A DNA stretch of 60,138 nt, taken from Candidatus Blautia intestinavium (GTDB lineage Bacteria > Bacillota > Clostridia > Lachnospirales > Lachnospiraceae). The stretch is taken from assembly GCA_019113745.1 (NCBI GenBank), contig DXGV01000032.1, positions 1-60,138 on the forward strand. Reading direction: 5' to 3'. A model generated the notes under the pieces. The model did not search any database. It was given only the letters and a program-made list of their open reading frames with translations, and had not been told where the DNA came from. Below, piece by piece: positions 29,108 to 35,466 of the stretch (within the stretch, counting starts at the first letter, position 1; each line of letters begins with the position of its first letter). Made by a program: the position numbers and the translations under genes.

Positions 29108-30502
29108 TCATGATTCCGGCTGCTTACAATAGTTTTCACCTTGTTTTTTTGAAAGAGGGATGAAAAAGCAGAACCGGGATCCTTTTCCCGGAGCACTTTC
29201 CACAGAAATTTCTCCGCCGTGGATCTCAACGATCCATTTTACTATGGGAAGCCCCAGTCCGGAGCCCGTGTTTTCCTTTCCTGTCCTGGAAGAGTCCGCC
29301 TGATAAAACCTCTCCCAGATATGCGGAAGCTGTTCCTCGGAAATTCCGATCCCGTTATCTTCAACGCAGCCACAGGCGCGGCCGTTTTCCTCCTTCAGGC
29401 CGACTTTTAGCCATCCGCCCTTTTTTCCATAAGAAATCCCGTTTCCAATCAGATTCATCCACAGCCGGATAAACAGCGTCTCGTCAACATAGCCTTCTAT
29501 TCCTTCCTGAATATCCGTCTCTATCCTGATTCCCTTTTCCCCCGCTATCTCAATCTGTTCTTCTGCCGCCATCTCCGTAATAAGTGAAAGATCCAGAAGT
29601 TCTTTATGCACTGCCTGCCGGCTCTGATCCGCCCTGGAGAGAAAAAGAAGCTGGGCGATCATCTTAGACATATTCCGCGCCTTCTGCCTTATCACTTCCA
29701 CTGCTGAACGCTCCTCGCCGGACAGCTCCCCGTCCTCCAGAAGATATTCGCACTGTGAAAGGATCACGGCCACCGGCGTGCGCAGCTCATGAGACGCGTC
29801 GGAAGTAAATCTCTTTTCTTTTTCAAAAGCCTGCTCCACCTTATCCAGCATCAGATCAAAAGTCTCCGCCATAACATAAATTTCATTTTTCTCTCCGGTA
29901 AGGCCAATCCGCTTGGAAAGATCCTTCTTCTCGTAAATCTCTCTTGCCGTGGCTGTGATCCCGGCTACCGGACGGAATACTCTCCGTACAAACAAATATC
30001 CCAGAACCGCAGCCAGCGCTACCAGAAGAGGGAACAGGATCAGAGACAAACGGATCGTTATCTGAAGGCTGCTCTCAGCGTCTGTAATGGAAATGATCCC
30101 CCGGACATAAACTGTTCCATAGCCGGGTATCTCAAAGGAGGCGTCCCGGATTTCCCACTGGATCCCCTGGGCGGAAATCTTGTGCAAACCTTCTTCCAGC
30201 GGGACGTCCTGGGTAAATTCGTAAGGAAGTCTTCCTCCGATCAGATCTCCCTCCCCATCGTAGGCGGAAAGATAAATTCCGTTTTCCACTTCGTAAAAAT
30301 CTGAATCCAGACGGAGCCTTTCCCCGTTCCATTCCATATCCTCTGAAACGCTAAAAACTCTTTCTTCCATCTCTTTTTCCGCAGAGGAAAGTATCTCGCT
30401 GCTGCTTAAAGACAAAAGGACTCCCAGCATCACTACCGTAAGGATTGTCATAAACGCGGTATACAAAATGGTCAGTTTCCATTTCAAAGGCAGCTTCTTC
30501 AT
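29108..30502 (-). CDS. Membrane sensor histidine kinase (HAMP type)
   Basis: A 464-residue kinase. Helices at about 10-32 and 150-172 flank a 118-residue external sensor. HAMP follows at about 173-226 (VFRPVAGITATAREI), then HisKA with FTSDASHELRTPVAVIL (His about 238) and the HATPase domain with LWMNLIGNGISYG, DNGIGISEEQLPHIWERFY and GSGLGLPIVKWIVE. It overlaps its response regulator by 4 bases (ATGA). Last gene of the unit that starts with the Cys/Asp-repeat protein. Confidence 0.94.
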   Translation of the reverse strand: MKKLPLKWKLTILYTAFMTILTVVMLGVLLSLSSSEILSSAEKEMEERVFSVSEDMEWNGERLRLDSDFYEVENGIYLSAYDGEGDLIGGRLPYEFTQDVPLEEGLHKISAQGIQWEIRDASFEIPGYGTVYVRGIISITDAESSLQITIRLSLILFPLLVALAAVLGYLFVRRVFRPVAGITATAREIYEKKDLSKRIGLTGEKNEIYVMAETFDLMLDKVEQAFEKEKRFTSDASHELRTPVAVILSQCEYLLEDGELSGEERSAVEVIRQKARNMSKMIAQLLFLSRADQSRQAVHKELLDLSLITEMAAEEQIEIAGEKGIRIETDIQEGIEGYVDETLFIRLWMNLIGNGISYGKKGGWLKVGLKEENGRACGCVEDNGIGISEEQLPHIWERFYQADSSRTGKENTGSGLGLPIVKWIVEIHGGEISVESAPGKGSRFCFFIPLSKKQGENYCKQPES

Positions 30503-31179
30503 TCTTCCTCCCTTAATACATAACCGGCCCCCCGAACTGTATGTATCAGTTTCGGCGAAAAGCCCTCGTCGATCTTTTTCCGCAGATACCGTATGTAGAC
30601 GTCCACCACATTGGAACCTCCGGCATAATCATAATTCCAGATATGCTCCTCAATTTTATCTCTTGAAAGCACGATACCCTTATTCATGCAGAGATATCTC
30701 AGAATCGAGAACTCCCGGCTGGAAAGACTGATCTCTTTCCCGCCGCGGCTTACCTTCTGTGTATTCAGATCCACCCTCATATCCGCCACTTCGATAATAT
30801 TCGTCTTCGTTTCCGCCCCGGCGTTTTTCCTCAGCATAACCCGGATACGGGCCAGAAGTTCGTCAAAGGCAAAGGGTTTGATCAGATAATCGTCTGCTCC
30901 CGCGTCCAGTCCCGTCACCCTGTCCTCCACGCTGTCCCGGGCAGTCAAAAGCAGTACAGGAGTATTTTTCTTTTTATCGCGGATATATTTCAGCACCTCA
31001 AGCCCGTTCTTTTTCGGCATCATAATATCCAGGATCACCGCGTCGTATTCCGTAACTGCCAGGTAATCCACCGCCTCCTCGCCGTCAAAACAGGCGTCCA
31101 CACTGTATTTCTGCTTTTCCAGCCTTTTTTTCAGAAGATTATTAAGATCCCTCTCATCTTCTGCAATTAAAATCCGCAT
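30499..31179 (-). CDS. OmpR-type response regulator
   Basis: A 226-residue regulator; start at 31179 chosen because AAGGTGA precedes it and the protein opens MRILIAEDE. The phospho-acceptor Asp is about residue 51 (DAVILDIMMPKKNG). The switch is VLLLTARDS, and the winged helix has LSSREFSILRYLCMNKG and VVDVYIRYLRKKID. The start is 19 bases after the anti-sigma stop, so all five genes 29108-33229 appear to be one transcript. Confidence 0.94.
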   Translation of the reverse strand: MRILIAEDERDLNNLLKKRLEKQKYSVDACFDGEEAVDYLAVTEYDAVILDIMMPKKNGLEVLKYIRDKKKNTPVLLLTARDSVEDRVTGLDAGADDYLIKPFAFDELLARIRVMLRKNAGAETKTNIIEVADMRVDLNTQKVSRGGKEISLSSREFSILRYLCMNKGIVLSRDKIEEHIWNYDYAGGSNVVDVYIRYLRKKIDEGFSPKLIHTVRGAGYVLREEE

Positions 31180-31198
31180 AAAATCACCTTCATTTTCT

Positions 31199-32245
31199 TT
31201 ATTCTCTGTGACGTCTCCCATGTCCTGCCCCATGTTCGCCGTAGGATTCCTGATGATGAGCGCCGGTTCCGTTCATACCGTACCCGTTTCCTGCTCCAGT
31301 TCCGTCCCCAGCTTCGGAGCCATTCCCGTTACCGTTCCCGGCGCCACTTCCATTTCCTGCTCCAGTTCCGTTCCCCTCTCCGTTTCCGCTTCCTGCATTA
31401 TTCCCGTTACCAGAGCCAGTTCCACTTCCAGCGCTGTTTCCGCTTCCAGAACCATTCCCGTTACCTGAGTCAGTTCCACTCCCGGCGCCGTTTCCGATAT
31501 CATTCCCCTGCAGTTCTTCTATCCGGTTCCTGATTTCTCTCATGGTCATTCCCTGCACATCCCCGGGAGAGATATCAGGGTCCAGCTCCTTCAGTTCCAG
31601 ATATGCCATATATTTCCCGTAGGAAAGTCCGGACGCATGAGCATCTTCCAGAACCTCAGAATCTGCATGATAGCAGTGAGTATTTTCCTGTCCCTGTGTG
31701 CATTCTTCCACATTGGAATAGACCGTCTGCGTCTTTTTCTCATCTTCTCCGGCGACCACAATAGACATCACCTGATCCTGGGCAAGATAGTCCTGCACGC
31801 TCTCATTATCCATAATCTCTTCCAAGGCCTCCTCATAATTCATAAACAGTATCTTCAGAGATTCCGCCAGTTTTTCTCCATCCTCATTATACTCTTTCAC
31901 ATCCACCACTCTGTCAAACCGGTTGACGTCCAGTTCCAGGGAAGGATTAATATCAATGCTGATCACCGACACCGGCTTAAAATAAAGCTGCCAGCCGCCA
32001 AAGACCATCAGAATAAGCATACAGCAAACGGCCGGGATAACACGGAATACGCCGGAAACTCTGCCAGGCCTCCGCGTCCGGGTGTAAAAGGCGTCAGGCA
32101 AGTCGGCATCCCCTGCTTTCACAGGAACCAATTCCGGAGACTTCTGATAATCTCCCGTGGTCTTTGCCAGGAATTCCCTGGTTTTGTTCTTTAATTCTTC
32201 ATCGGCGTGTATCATATCAAACGTTTCCCGGATCTTACGCTTCAT
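31199..32245 (-). CDS. RsgI-like membrane anti-sigma factor with Gly/Asn/Ser-rich tail
   Basis: A 348-residue protein. The ATG at 32245 is 8 bases after GGGAGG; one two codons earlier is too close. A cytoplasmic part (about 1-68) should hold the ECF sigma factor, one helix spans about 69-89 (IPAVCCMLILMVFGGW), and the external domain opens SVISIDINPSLELDVNRF, the RsgI-type periplasmic pattern. About 100 C-terminal residues from about 247 are nearly only Gly, Asn, Ser, Thr and Ala in short repeats, ending in a His-rich stretch. Overlaps the sigma gene by 11 bases. The tail may reach into the cell wall or bind a surface ligand; this is inference. Confidence 0.82.
   Translation of the reverse strand: MKRKIRETFDMIHADEELKNKTREFLAKTTGDYQKSPELVPVKAGDADLPDAFYTRTRRPGRVSGVFRVIPAVCCMLILMVFGGWQLYFKPVSVISIDINPSLELDVNRFDRVVDVKEYNEDGEKLAESLKILFMNYEEALEEIMDNESVQDYLAQDQVMSIVVAGEDEKKTQTVYSNVEECTQGQENTHCYHADSEVLEDAHASGLSYGKYMAYLELKELDPDISPGDVQGMTMREIRNRIEELQGNDIGNGAGSGTDSGNGNGSGSGNSAGSGTGSGNGNNAGSGNGEGNGTGAGNGSGAGNGNGNGSEAGDGTGAGNGYGMNGTGAHHQESYGEHGAGHGRRHRE
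31260..31500 (-). repeat. Short tandem degenerate repeats coding Gly-Asn/Gly-Ser tail
   Basis: The DNA runs through many near-copies of a six-base unit (GGAANN/GGCTCT-like on the coding strand), translating to GNG, GSG, GAGN and similar. Such tracts change length by slippage. Approximate limits. Confidence 0.7.
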
Positions 32246-32720
32246 ACTCATCGCCTCCCAACTTATCTTTCAGAATCTTTCGCGCCCGCTTCAGCAGAGT
32301 GTAGACAGTGTTTTCTTTTTTCCCCAGAATACGTCCGATCTCTGGCGCCGTATATTCCTCATAATAATAAAGATAAACTACGTCACGGTATTTCGCCGGA
32401 AGCTCCAGAACAGCCTCCAGAACTTCCCTGTTGTCCTGCGGCATCTGAGACGGTTTTTCCACCAGTTCGTCCAGCGACACCGTCCGGCTGCGGAAAAAAC
32501 TTTTCAGAAGATCTTTGCAGGCATTCACCGTCACACAGATGAACCATGCTTTTTCATGCTCTTCACTTTCAAATGAAACAGAACTAAGGACATACTTCAG
32601 AAACACTGTCTGAAATATGTCCTCAGTGTCCGCGTTGTTTTTCAGATGAACGATACATATCCTCCGGACGGTATCCGCATATTTTTCTATCGCCCGGTTT
32701 ACTTCCTCCTCACAGCGCAT
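32235..32720 (-). CDS. ECF-type RNA polymerase sigma factor
   Basis: A 161-residue sigma-70 family protein with only regions 2 and 4. Region 2 has VRRICIVHLKNNADTEDIFQ and FLKYVLS..., FESEEHEKAWFICVTVNAC. Region 4 has VLELPAKYRDVVYLYYYEEY and the helix-turn-helix TAPEIGRILGKKENTVYTLL. It starts 17 bases after the Cys/Asp-repeat gene and overlaps the anti-sigma gene, the classic sigma/anti-sigma arrangement. The promoter it reads is probably the one in front of its own operon. Confidence 0.93.
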   Translation of the reverse strand: MRCEEEVNRAIEKYADTVRRICIVHLKNNADTEDIFQTVFLKYVLSSVSFESEEHEKAWFICVTVNACKDLLKSFFRSRTVSLDELVEKPSQMPQDNREVLEAVLELPAKYRDVVYLYYYEEYTAPEIGRILGKKENTVYTLLKRARKILKDKLGGDEYEA

Positions 32721-32737
32721 ATCTAATCCCCAATCTG

Positions 32738-33229
32738 TTATCTGCGGGAACCTCCGTGATGTCCGTTTCCCTGGCCTGTGTGATGTCCCTGACCGTTTCC
32801 GCCTGTTCCGTAATTGTCGCAGACTCCGTTGTTATCCGCGTCCACATAATTTCTGCCCTGGCCGTTTCCGCCTGCATAATAACCGCAGTTGTCGCAGATC
32901 CCGTCATCGTCCGCGTCAACACAGTAGCTTCCCGCCATACATCCGTTCAGATCCCGGCTACAGTTGTCGCAGATCCCGTCGTCGTCCGCGTCAACACAGT
33001 TCCGTCCCCAATGACATACGCCGTCTTCCACGCCGCAGTAATCGCAGATTCCATCGTTGTCCGCATCGGCATGGCATCTTCCCTGAGCGCAACCGCCTGT
33101 ATAGTTACAGGAACTGCTGCAGTAACCCGCTCCGTTTCCATGATGTCCGCCATGGCCTCCTGCAAATACAGTTGCTGCAGACACTGTGAACAATGCCGCG
33201 AATAAAACTCCTGCAAATAATTTCTTCAT
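32738..33229 (-). CDS. Small secreted protein with four Cys/Asp calcium-loop-like repeats
   Basis: A 163-residue protein after AAGGAGGA, with a signal peptide ending near residue 23 (VFA|GG). Four repeats at residues about 52-65, 78-90, 103-115 and 128-140 follow the pattern C-x-D-A-D-x-D/N-G-x-C-D-x-C, spaced 25-26 residues. DADDDGICD resembles thrombospondin type 3 or dockerin-like calcium loops, here locked by Cys pairs; the last copy has Tyr in place of the outer Cys residues. Both ends are rich in Gly and His (GGHGGHHG and HHTGQGNGHHGG), possibly for metal. No family name is recognised. First gene of the ECF/anti-sigma/two-component operon, so perhaps a metal-responsive surface factor or a target of the sigma. 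Confidence 0.8.
   Translation of the reverse strand: MKKLFAGVLFAALFTVSAATVFAGGHGGHHGNGAGYCSSSCNYTGGCAQGRCHADADNDGICDYCGVEDGVCHWGRNCVDADDDGICDNCSRDLNGCMAGSYCVDADDDGICDNCGYYAGGNGQGRNYVDADNNGVCDNYGTGGNGQGHHTGQGNGHHGGSRR
32815..33080 (-). repeat. DNA repeats coding the Cys/Asp loops
   Basis: Four copies of a 75-78-base unit, of which the two middle ones share an almost identical 38-base core (around 32900-32930 and 32970-33000 on the plus strand: GTCGCAGATCCCGTCGTCGT type). Recent internal duplication or gene conversion is likely. Limits approximate. Confidence 0.7.
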
Positions 33230-33423
33230 AGTATCTTCCTCCTTCATATTCTGTATTATTTACCTCTTCACTACTAATACGAATGACAGGAAGAAATCCG
33301 TCCAAAATAAAAAAATTTTTTTAAATTATCGGTTTTTGCGTATATGATTTCCAGAAACATGAGATTCAGGGTAATAAAAAACGCCACATCCCACGGTAAT
33401 GAAACATGACGCCTTTCGCTAAA
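33230..33423 (-). promoter_or_regulatory. Region upstream of the Cys/Asp-repeat operon
   Basis: No gene is seen here. About 55 bases before the start, the minus strand has a T-rich run, then GGACGGATTTCTTCC and CGTATTAG about 8 bases later; CGTATTA resembles ECF-type -10 sites, so an autoregulated ECF promoter is possible. This is a visual guess, not a scored match. Confidence 0.3.
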
Positions 33424-33497
33424 TAGCGGGGACAGGATTTGAACCTGCGACCTTCGGGTTATGAGCCCGACGAGCTTCCGGACTGCTCCACCCCGCG
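33424..33497 (-). tRNA. Initiator tRNA-fMet (anticodon CAT)
   Basis: A 74-base cloverleaf on the minus strand: acceptor CGCGGGG/CCCCGCT with a mismatch at the first pair, D arm with GGAGCAGTCCGGAAGCTC, anticodon stem GGG-CTCATAA-CCC, and T loop GGTTCAAATCC. Three consecutive G-C pairs next to the anticodon loop and the 1-72 mismatch mark the initiator. The CCA end is not encoded (TTT follows). Confidence 0.95.
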
Positions 33498-33697: not shown

Positions 33698-34600
33698 TCA
33701 TGTCATTTTTTCTTCTGACGGTTTTCTTTCTTTGAAGCACTGTTTTTTCTTTTCAAATCCCAGGTTTATCGCTGCCGCCGGGCAGACTTTTTTGCAGTTT
33801 CCACATCTGATGCATTCCGGATCATTTGGATTCTTCACCGGATCCACCTGCATTTTGCAGACTTTGGCGCAGGCGCCGCAGTGAACGCAGGATTCCCTGT
33901 CTACCCGGTAACGGAAAACCGCAATGGGATTAAACACCGAATATACGGCTCCCAGAGGACAGATATACTTGCAAAACGGCCTGTAAATCATTATAGAAAG
34001 GACGATTATCATTACAAGAAGCACATTCTTCCAGGTATAAAGCCATCCCACCGTTGCCCGCATGGCGCTGTTGAGAAGCACCAGCGGTATCCCGCCCTCC
34101 AGAGTTCCCGCGGGACAGATCAGCTTACAGAAATACGGCGCTCCCTGTCCAAGCATATCCACCACAAACATTGGAAGCAGAATCACAAACACCAGAAAAA
34201 TCACATACTTCAGTTTCCTGAGAAGCCGGTCTCCCCGGAAAGTATTTATTTTTTTTACAAAAGGAATCTTATGAAGGAGATCCTGGATCAACCCGAAAGG
34301 ACAGAGCCATCCGCAGACAAACCTGCCCATAAGGGCTCCCACAAACACCAGAAATCCGGCCACATAAAAGGCCATCCTGAAGTTCCAGCTTCCGATCACC
34401 GCCTGCATGGCTCCTATGGGGCAGGAACCCAGAGCGCCGGGGCAGGAGTAGCAGTTCAGTCCGGGTACGCAGAGATTCTTCAGTTTTCCCTCATAAATCT
34501 TTCCCTTCGCGAACCCCACCAGATAGCTGTTGGTAAGAAAAGCCCAAAGGATCTGGATTATGTGTCTTCCCCACTCATTTGTTTTCTTTTTATTATCCAA
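33698..34600 (-). CDS. NapH-like membrane ferredoxin protein (4Fe-4S)
   Basis: A 300-residue membrane protein. About five helices carry the NapH/RdxA motifs VCGWLCPFGLIQDLLHK and FCKYICPLGAVYS, preceded by CPGALGSCPIGAMQ. The C-terminus has two ferredoxin 4Fe-4S motifs: CVHCGACAKVCKMQVDP and CIRCGNCKKVCPAAA. It likely passes electrons from the cytoplasm towards the outer face. The start is TTG at 34600, overlapping the stop of the 58-residue gene upstream; GGAG lies 10 bases before. Partner: TlpA-like protein upstream. Confidence 0.88.
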   Translation of the reverse strand: MDNKKKTNEWGRHIIQILWAFLTNSYLVGFAKGKIYEGKLKNLCVPGLNCYSCPGALGSCPIGAMQAVIGSWNFRMAFYVAGFLVFVGALMGRFVCGWLCPFGLIQDLLHKIPFVKKINTFRGDRLLRKLKYVIFLVFVILLPMFVVDMLGQGAPYFCKLICPAGTLEGGIPLVLLNSAMRATVGWLYTWKNVLLVMIIVLSIMIYRPFCKYICPLGAVYSVFNPIAVFRYRVDRESCVHCGACAKVCKMQVDPVKNPNDPECIRCGNCKKVCPAAAINLGFEKKKQCFKERKPSEEKMT

Positions 34601-34769
34601 TTCCGATACACTCCATACAGATTCTTACAGCCTTATCAAAAACCACGGACATTTCTCCTCTGGAAATACCATAGAGCATCATTGCCGCACCCAAAAGCGC
34701 CGCAAATATTCCCGCTATGGGAATTCTGTCATTGCAGCGCGCCCACAGGCCGCGTATTTTCGTCTTCAT
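34593..34769 (-). CDS. CD1871A-type CXXC mini-protein (58 residues)
   Basis: A short gene below a 60-codon cutoff. It begins MKTKIRGLWARCNDRIP, has one membrane helix (about 18-33, AGIFAALLGAAMMLYG) and ends SVVFDKAVRICMECIGIG, the CxxCIGIG end typical of the CD1871A family. AAAGGA precedes its ATG. It sits between a TlpA-like thioredoxin gene and the NapH-like gene, whose TTG start overlaps its last codons. The CXXC motif and the context imply a role in membrane thiol or heme/Fe-S redox chemistry; no reaction is known. Confidence 0.85.
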   Translation of the reverse strand: MKTKIRGLWARCNDRIPIAGIFAALLGAAMMLYGISRGEMSVVFDKAVRICMECIGIG

Positions 34770-34884
34770 CTTTCCAATTCCTTTCTGCAGTCATTTCCGC
34801 TCCTGTTTTTCCCGACGGTTCTTCCATACACCTGTAAATCCGTACATTTTCCGCAGAAATTCCAGGAGCTCTCCGTCTCCCTTC

Positions 34885-35466
34885 TCAGGAATCTTCCTTA
34901 AGTGCTTTCAGCTCGTTTTCTACGATTTCTTTCCATGCGTCCAGATCCCGGGCTCCAACATAGCTTTCCCCTACGATCTCCCCGTCTTTATTCACAAAGA
35001 AAGTTTCCGGGTAAGCCTGGATTCCGGAAAGCCTGTCGTTCATCAGACCTTCGTCCGGGATCAGGAAGGGATAGTCTGTTTCCGCTACTTCCGCCAGAAG
35101 CTTCGCCGTTTCCAGCGCCTCTTCATCTGTTTCTTCTATAGTTCCGGTATCCATTACCATACCGATCACCTGAACGCCCTCGTCCTCCATCTCCTCGCTG
35201 AGCTTCTGAAGCTCCGGAACCTCACTGATACAGGGACCGCACCAGGTAGCGAATACGTTTACAAGAGTCAGTTCCGCTTCCGCAAAAAGCTCCTCCGTAT
35301 ATTCTTTTCCATTGATATCTTCTGTTGTAAAAGTCCCTACTGTCTGAGGCTCTTTCTTCTCCTCCGCCATAGCCGGAACCGCTCCGAAGATTCCCGCCGC
35401 AAGGATTCCGGACAGCATCAGGGCCTGAAATTTTTTTCCTGTTTTGTTCATGTTTCGTTTCTTCAT
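34885..35466 (-). CDS. TlpA/ResA-like secreted thioredoxin
   Basis: A 193-residue protein after AGGAGG with a signal sequence (about 1-35, ALMLSGILAAGIFGAVPAMA|EE). The thioredoxin fold has VNVFATWCGPCISEVPELQKL with the catalytic WCGPC, then a cis-Pro region (IQAYPETFFVNKDG). It would reduce or oxidise disulfides outside the membrane, fed by the NapH-like protein and the CXXC mini-protein. First gene of the three-gene operon. Confidence 0.92.
   Translation of the reverse strand: MKKRNMNKTGKKFQALMLSGILAAGIFGAVPAMAEEKKEPQTVGTFTTEDINGKEYTEELFAEAELTLVNVFATWCGPCISEVPELQKLSEEMEDEGVQVIGMVMDTGTIEETDEEALETAKLLAEVAETDYPFLIPDEGLMNDRLSGIQAYPETFFVNKDGEIVGESYVGARDLDAWKEIVENELKALKEDS

Follow-up and report, generated by a model that had tools for sequence, protein, structure and literature searches.

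Gene content of the locus

We analysed the whole of contig DXGV01000032.1, a window of 60,138 nucleotides in the 2.73 Mb draft genome of Candidatus Blautia intestinavium (G000, 82.7% complete). A first-pass annotation of this window had read five genes at 29,108 to 33,229 as one surface-signalling operon: a small secreted protein with Cys/Asp repeats, an extracytoplasmic function (ECF) sigma factor, an RsgI-like anti-sigma factor and a two-component pair. All five genes, each on the minus strand, were borne out by the open reading frames (ORFs) and, except for the secreted protein, by Pfam, and they are two units: a three-gene cassette encoding the secreted protein, the sigma factor and the anti-sigma factor, and a separate two-component pair. 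The features of the locus are the following (G and L numbers denote genomes and loci).

33276..33304, minus strand: predicted ECF-type promoter, TGGACGG-N15-TCGTATT, with an A/T tract just upstream (genome pattern search)
32738..33229, minus strand: small secreted protein, 163 aa, Cys-rich, with a signal peptide recognised by eye, four DxDxDG-type loops and a Gly/His-rich C-terminus
32235..32720, minus strand: ECF sigma factor, 161 aa, regions 2 and 4 (Sigma70_r2, Sigma70_r4_2)
32583..32627, minus strand: 19-pair hairpin within the sigma frame, codons 32-46 (minimum free energy -26.7 kcal/mol; synonymous shuffles)
31199..32251, minus strand: RsgI-type anti-sigma factor, 350 aa (PF23750, E 8.4e-29; AlphaFold model matching solved RsgI domains)
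31943..31948, minus strand: codons for Asn102-Pro103, the predicted self-cleavage bond (alignment to solved RsgI B chains)
31181..33373, minus strand: promoter and three genes, missing at the matching place in G009 (L212; alignment)
30499..31179, minus strand, ATG at 31179: OmpR-type response regulator, a neighbour of the cassette only (Response_reg, Trans_reg_C)
29108..30502, minus strand: sensor histidine kinase, a neighbour of the cassette only (HAMP, HisKA, HATPase_c)
33424..33497, minus strand: tRNA-Met (CAT), just upstream of the cassette and also present in the cassette-free relative G009

An alternative upstream ATG is possible for the secreted protein at 33247, and the mechanical ORF of the response regulator opens further upstream, at 31233. 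The spacing of 17-19 bases reported in the annotation holds for a 17-base gap, a 17-base overlap and a 19-base gap; a 4-base overlap of regulator and kinase had been missed. It is because of this tight spacing that two separate units resembled one five-gene system.

The cassette is separable from the two-component pair

Among 98 related genomes, sigma matches at E <= 1e-50 gave a near-relative set of 14 loci in 13 genomes besides the window's, and a gene with an RsgI_M domain adjoins the sigma gene in all 14. A scan of a genome collection listed at least 596 pattern matches with at least 573 sigma relatives among them, the best 80 of which formed a wider set; here the anti-sigma gene adjoins sigma in 79 loci, the 80th (L082) lying at a contig edge. 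The secreted protein gene was found in 74 of the 78 wider loci with readable upstream DNA, which comprise 72 secreted proteins from the gene caller and six loci judged by eye (L093 and L131 are cut off upstream). Among those six, loops were present in L071 and L097 and none were shown in L067, L102 and L127, L139 being doubtful. Both sets of loci support the earlier grouping of secreted protein, sigma and anti-sigma factor as one unit. Nor does the repeat gene occur without the sigma pair in most relatives: all nine secreted-protein matches (eight genes in 7 of the 98 genomes, the window's included) adjoin a sigma gene, in a search so insensitive that the sigma-adjacent genes in G011, G023, G066, G052, G059 and G083 were missed and seen only by eye.

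The further proposal of a five-gene system with three layers of regulation had to be given up, the two-component pair being separable from the cassette. Of the 14 near-relative loci, four have the pair downstream of the cassette (L049, L050, L051 and L052, the contig of L049 ending after the regulator); L057, among the other ten, offers just 1.4 kb on the right. In the wider set a single locus of the 80 has it (L063, on the same contig as near relative G007), and 14 of the 80 have less than 2 kb to the right. G009, G043 and G036 have the pair and no cassette, and in G046 the pair and the cassettes are on different contigs; the kinase is 81% identical to the window's in G009, 71% in G046, 65% in G043 (one stop in the matched stretch) and 52% in G036. 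G046 itself has the cassette twice, once on each of two contigs (G046:C87 and G046:C221; L057 and L058). Response-regulator genes are found elsewhere in the flanks of L080, L092, L097 and L126.

Frames overlapping the cassette genes aside, no cluster of neighbouring genes recurred in more than 8 of 92 loci; the largest were response regulators (8 loci, including four from the window lineage) and an ABC ATPase recognised by eye (5 loci). A terminator follows the anti-sigma gene in 12 of 75 loci, against 0 of 75 shuffles; as a marker of the end of the unit it was dropped, 12 being too few.

A conserved promoter-like element with no second target above background

An ECF-like element, TGAATGGATT-N12-TCGTATT, stands upstream of the secreted protein gene in 75 of 81 regions, of which 72 come from the 80-locus set, 8 from near-relative loci and one from the window. 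It often lies between an A/T tract and GTGAA, and it is missing in L082, L101, L108, L109, L118 and L138. This count was made with TCGT fixed and scores of at least 11 of 18 kept, so the invariance of TCGT is there by construction. An unbiased count of word pairs found TGAA-N18-TCGT in 72 of the 81 regions, any pair reaching at most 8 in three shuffles. We infer that the element is the promoter used by the cassette sigma factor.

A relaxed pattern searched in 10 cassette genomes gave 35 matches, namely the 10 cassette sites and 25 others, with 26 for the reversed control. The strict pattern gave 46 sites in the 98 genomes, 13 of them at cassettes and one at a decayed cassette (G044, L216); among the remaining sites are seven close variants of one sequence and two of another. 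Two of the seven variant sites are in G013 and G014, genomes that gave no sigma match. The G000 copy of this sequence, at G000:C47:28900-28928 (L187), is nearly unchanged in several relatives and is probably coding sequence, since it lies across a 366-codon frame of the opposite strand (HrcA-like by eye). One relaxed-pattern site recurs in G007 and G025, yet across long opposite-strand frames. A wider regulon was dropped because the consensus patterns gave no second target above background, and the sigma factor thus appears, from these patterns, to control mainly its own cassette.

An RsgI-type anti-sigma factor paired with an ECF sigma factor

The sigma factor is a short protein with sigma-70 regions 2 and 4 only, as expected of an ECF: within its 161 aa, Sigma70_r2 scored 33.9 bits and Sigma70_r4_2 57.2 bits, both above cut-off, and TIGR02937 scored 81.1 against a cut-off of 42.9. 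The anti-sigma factor matches RsgI_M (PF23750) with 101.3 bits against a cut-off of 25.3, and a Foldseek comparison of its AlphaFold model with solved structures returned RsgI in all of the top ten, including 8t9n, 8hep and 8hdj. The model has two short helices within the first 66 residues, a helix at 67-91 which is taken as transmembrane, RsgI_M at about 93-249 and a tail at 250-350. The Pfam matches of the anti-sigma factor, up to E 1, do not include the N-terminal sigma-binding family of RsgI, which we take to be PF12791.

In three alignments the solved RsgI B chains start at the aligned proline, and a cut between Asn102 and Pro103 is predicted from this. The anti-sigma factor thus carries the putative Asn-Pro self-cleavage site of RsgI, as do 78 of 79 family members (73 by regular expression, five more by eye). 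The Gly/Asn/Ser tail of 100 residues that the annotation had described is present at about residues 250-350 and is His-rich at its end; beyond residue 250 the AlphaFold model is disordered, with a pLDDT of about 37-53. The genome also encodes an M50 (RseP-type) protease, and PMC12203970 describes degradation of RsgI anti-sigma factors by RseP and ClpXP.

The secreted protein and its histidines

The four Asp loops noted earlier are present, at residues 55, 80, 105 and 130 of the 163-aa form, and read, in order, DADNDGICD, DADDDGICD, DADDDGICD and DADNNGVCD. Their description as disulfide-locked goes beyond what can be read from the sequence: a second cysteine comes after each of the first three (CD.C), and in the fourth, which ends in CDNY, the same form of lock is impossible. 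The window protein matched no Pfam or NCBIfam family and no toxin family, and had no significant match among solved chains; its AlphaFold model is of low confidence (pLDDT 55.9) and uninterpretable. No calcium-binding family scored above cut-off for the secreted protein; EF-hand_5 in relative L098 reached 18.5 against 25.9. By a loose regular expression, 70 of the 72 secreted proteins have at least one DxDxDG-type loop, with up to 10 loops and a median of 7 cysteines; regular expressions for LPxTG and the lipobox found neither in the 72.

By Pfam, the secreted protein carries an extra surface domain in L099 (LRR_5) and in L130 (Listeria-Bacteroides repeat); by eye it is LRR-like in L103 and Big-like in L097. 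A second short motif, RPQDGTG-like, was seen by eye near the end of the secreted protein in L091, L101, L116, L117, L132, L137 and L140. Three further loci (L059, L060 and L061) are divergent cassettes.

Across 70 loci, anti-sigma tails richer in histidine go with secreted proteins richer in it (Spearman 0.64; contrast r 0.59; tip permutations, 0 of 500), a relation picked out post hoc from nine residues tested; with the C-terminal 40 residues of the secreted protein alone, the values were 0.68 and 0.61. This covariation of sequence composition fits a role of metal or pH, and does not show one.

A predicted hairpin within the sigma gene

Folding the 48-base codon stretch of the hairpin gives an energy of -26.8; 500 synonymous shuffles gave -11.2 (sd 3.6), and not one was as low. 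When we slid along 88 sigma genes, two pairs of identical loci among them, the hairpin spot had a mean z of -2.09, and all other spots besides codons 8-23 lay between -0.52 and +0.31. At codons 8-23 the family again shows more mRNA structure than expected, though less markedly (mean z -1.26). At the hairpin spot z was below -2 in 51 of 80 family members and in 0 of 9 other ECF genes, a further 7 of the 16 controls being unscored for lack of the motif. In the stem 89.2% of cells are paired, against 29-63% in slid versions, which favours the stem, but 28 of 30 double changes fall at one pair, so that this pair supplies most of the covariation.

RNAalifold found no consensus structure in 79 rows, which counts against the hairpin. 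Several hairpin codons are unusually conserved, but codons 78 and 155-156 are equally so, and conservation therefore does not single the hairpin out. Two other identities were rejected: no Rfam family corresponds to it, and half-site matches of a repeated DNA site occurred in the window at chance (9 against a mean of 6.2). The hairpin is likely a dual-coding element inside the sigma gene.

A cassette-free site, decay and spread

G009 (L212) repeats the gene order of the window with no cassette between tRNA-Met and regulator; common to both are a thioredoxin-like protein, a ferredoxin-type membrane protein, tRNA-Met, the regulator, the kinase, FUSC, RNase H and an AraC-type regulator. The alignment breaks at window position 33374 and restarts at 31180, so that about 2.2 kb of the window stand against about 20 bases. 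Gain of the cassette in the window lineage and loss from G009 are both possible. Loss does happen, as the decayed cassette in G044 indicates (L216 3873-4249, G044:C17), where the full promoter directly precedes the last part of an RsgI-type anti-sigma gene with no secreted protein or sigma gene between.

A sigma match of at least 198 bits was present in 14 of 393 genomes of the class, the window's included, a count of sigma matches alone, in a set with completeness of at least 90 asked of every genome except the window's own; the copy in G150 has an internal stop. Lachnospiraceae, Oscillospiraceae, Butyricicoccaceae and others are intermixed in the sigma tree, in which 26 of 82 inner branches are firm. 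Named strains among the carriers include Sellimonas caecigallum SW451 (L100) and Mediterraneibacter agrestimuris DSM 111629 (L113). The patchy distribution fits exchange or loss. As for mobile carriers, no sigma relative of at least 60% identity was found on plasmids or phages, and none was confirmed in viral contigs.

Upstream of the cassette, at 33698-35466, the window encodes a thioredoxin/redoxin-family protein, a small CXXC protein which is presumably CD1871A-like, and a NapH-like ferredoxin-type membrane protein (NapH below cut-off). In G011 (L056) the ferredoxin-type protein is likewise near the cassette, on its opposite side.

A self-inducing switch and its alternatives

Taken together, these features are probably best explained by a self-contained, private and self-inducing ECF/RsgI switch, as far as can be judged from sequences and models. 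In the resting state the sigma factor would be held at the membrane by the N-terminal helices of its anti-sigma factor; outside, RsgI_M would be self-cleaved at Asn-Pro with the pieces staying together, and the disordered Gly/Asn/Ser/His tail would extend into the wall. A change in envelope or ionic state, or a pull on the tail, may then release the outer piece, after which RseP and then Clp proteases would destroy the anti-sigma factor. The freed sigma factor would transcribe essentially one promoter, its own, and the main product, the secreted and often His-rich protein with Asp/Cys loops, would be active in the same outer layer and exert feedback on the tail. The separate two-component pair directly follows the cassette in the window lineage and may now be co-transcribed with it.

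Several observations do not sit easily with such a switch. The secreted protein gene was not seen in three of the 78 readable loci (L067, L102 and L127) and is doubtful in L139, and the protein lacks loops in L128 and L129 and also in L059-L061. The Asn-Pro site is missing in L105, from Butyricicoccus pullicaecorum, and in the divergent L059 and L060. The strict promoter pattern leaves 32 sites unexplained against 19 control matches, and weaker targets would escape a search by consensus pattern. The RsgI_M core, used as a control, correlates in histidine content with the secreted protein as well, more weakly (0.44; contrast 0.32), and general composition may thus account for part of the tail signal.

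A metal switch is rather less probable. Here metal would be bound by both the secreted protein and the anti-sigma tail (Ca on the Asp loops; Zn, Ni or Cu on the His stretches), and its level, or competition for it, would free the sigma factor. The loops in 70 of 72 secreted proteins and the covariation of histidine between the tail and the secreted C-terminus are what it would predict, and the two-component pair scores best against heavy-metal families. These scores stay below the CzcRS/CopRS cut-offs, however (TIGR01387, 237.2 against 279.2; TIGR01386, 206.4 against 292.55), the pair lies outside the cassette, and no neighbour cluster recurs widely, although single metal transporters could be among the neighbours. 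We regard as unlikely, and slightly more speculative still, a portable single-target self-inducing switch in which the secreted product is the ligand of the anti-sigma factor, the two His-rich ends bind one another or a shared metal across the wall, and the hairpin in the sigma frame fixes how much secreted protein is made relative to sigma factor.

It seems improbable that the cassette is a mostly selfish or competitive module that spreads horizontally, with a Cys-rich secreted protein aimed at other cells and a sigma pair whose one task is to control that protein. The patchy spread (14 of 393), the families intermixed in a sigma tree with few firm forks, the diverse genomic neighbours and the decayed copy in G044 would suit it, whereas the searches of plasmids, phages and viral contigs described above gave no carrier and the window protein resembles no toxin family. 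Least credible is that the sigma pair and the two-component pair are layers of one pathway in the window lineage, for which the tight spacing and the same order in the window and four near relatives (L049, L050, L051 and L052) speak, but 10 of 14 near-relative and 79 of 80 wider loci showed no pair downstream, and the pair exists without a cassette in G009, G043 and G036.

Relation to known systems and significance

The proposed private switch resembles SigI-RsgI of Bacillus subtilis and Clostridium thermocellum in its RsgI_M domain with an Asn-Pro site, its one membrane helix and its adjoining sigma and anti-sigma genes. It differs in that its sigma factor is an ECF with regions 2 and 4 rather than SigI, its anti-sigma factor has neither a match to the other, N-terminal RsgI family nor a folded C-terminal sensor domain, and the cassette begins with a secreted-protein gene. 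PMC6056542 gives the SigI family another C-terminal domain in place of region 4, and region 4 is present in the cassette sigma factor by Pfam. Other pairs of a sigma factor with regions 2 and 4 directly ahead of an RsgI_M anti-sigma factor occur elsewhere in the related genomes (L044, L045 and L048), so the pairing alone is not new; their anti-sigma factors are longer (385-524 aa) and the nearest upstream frame of at least 100 aa encodes a different protein.

A study in Genes Dev in 2022 reportedly dealt with disordered regions and with sensing by the disordered tail of B. subtilis RsgI, and one in 2023 is said to have dealt with RsgI autoproteolysis. The domain order of the B. subtilis protein is the same, RsgI_M and then, towards the wall, a disordered tail; in the cassette the tail consists of Gly/Asn/Ser/His and covaries with a co-encoded secreted protein. 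The loop spacing DxDxDGxxD is one that we take to resemble the calcium loops of thrombospondin type 3 and EF-hand-like repeats, but the cassette loops have cysteines in and after the loop (CD.C) and short repeats, and the window protein matched neither profile in Pfam. SigV-RsiV of Clostridioides difficile (PMC9044953) resembles the proposed switch in that activation of the ECF requires intramembrane proteolysis of its anti-sigma factor. That anti-sigma factor is RsiV, tied to lysozyme resistance. The sigma pair of the cassette, for its part, comes with a secreted protein; we know of no secreted loop protein in SigV-RsiV.

In the literature searched, most subscription journals being outside its scope, we found no description of the cassette, no RsgI in connection with Lachnospiraceae, none of the loop strings and no thrombospondin type 3 repeat with an ECF sigma factor. 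The cassette is a variation on known ECF and RsgI kinds, and a widespread module with a private sigma factor. It would give a fixed promoter for reporters and a testable role for a secreted protein outside known families, and if the hairpin is real, the sigma gene would also hold a dual-coding RNA element. If our explanation is true, the cassette would be an envelope-signalling module common to many gut Clostridia, and a naturally occurring example in which RsgI-type signalling is coupled to an ECF sigma factor that has almost no regulon.

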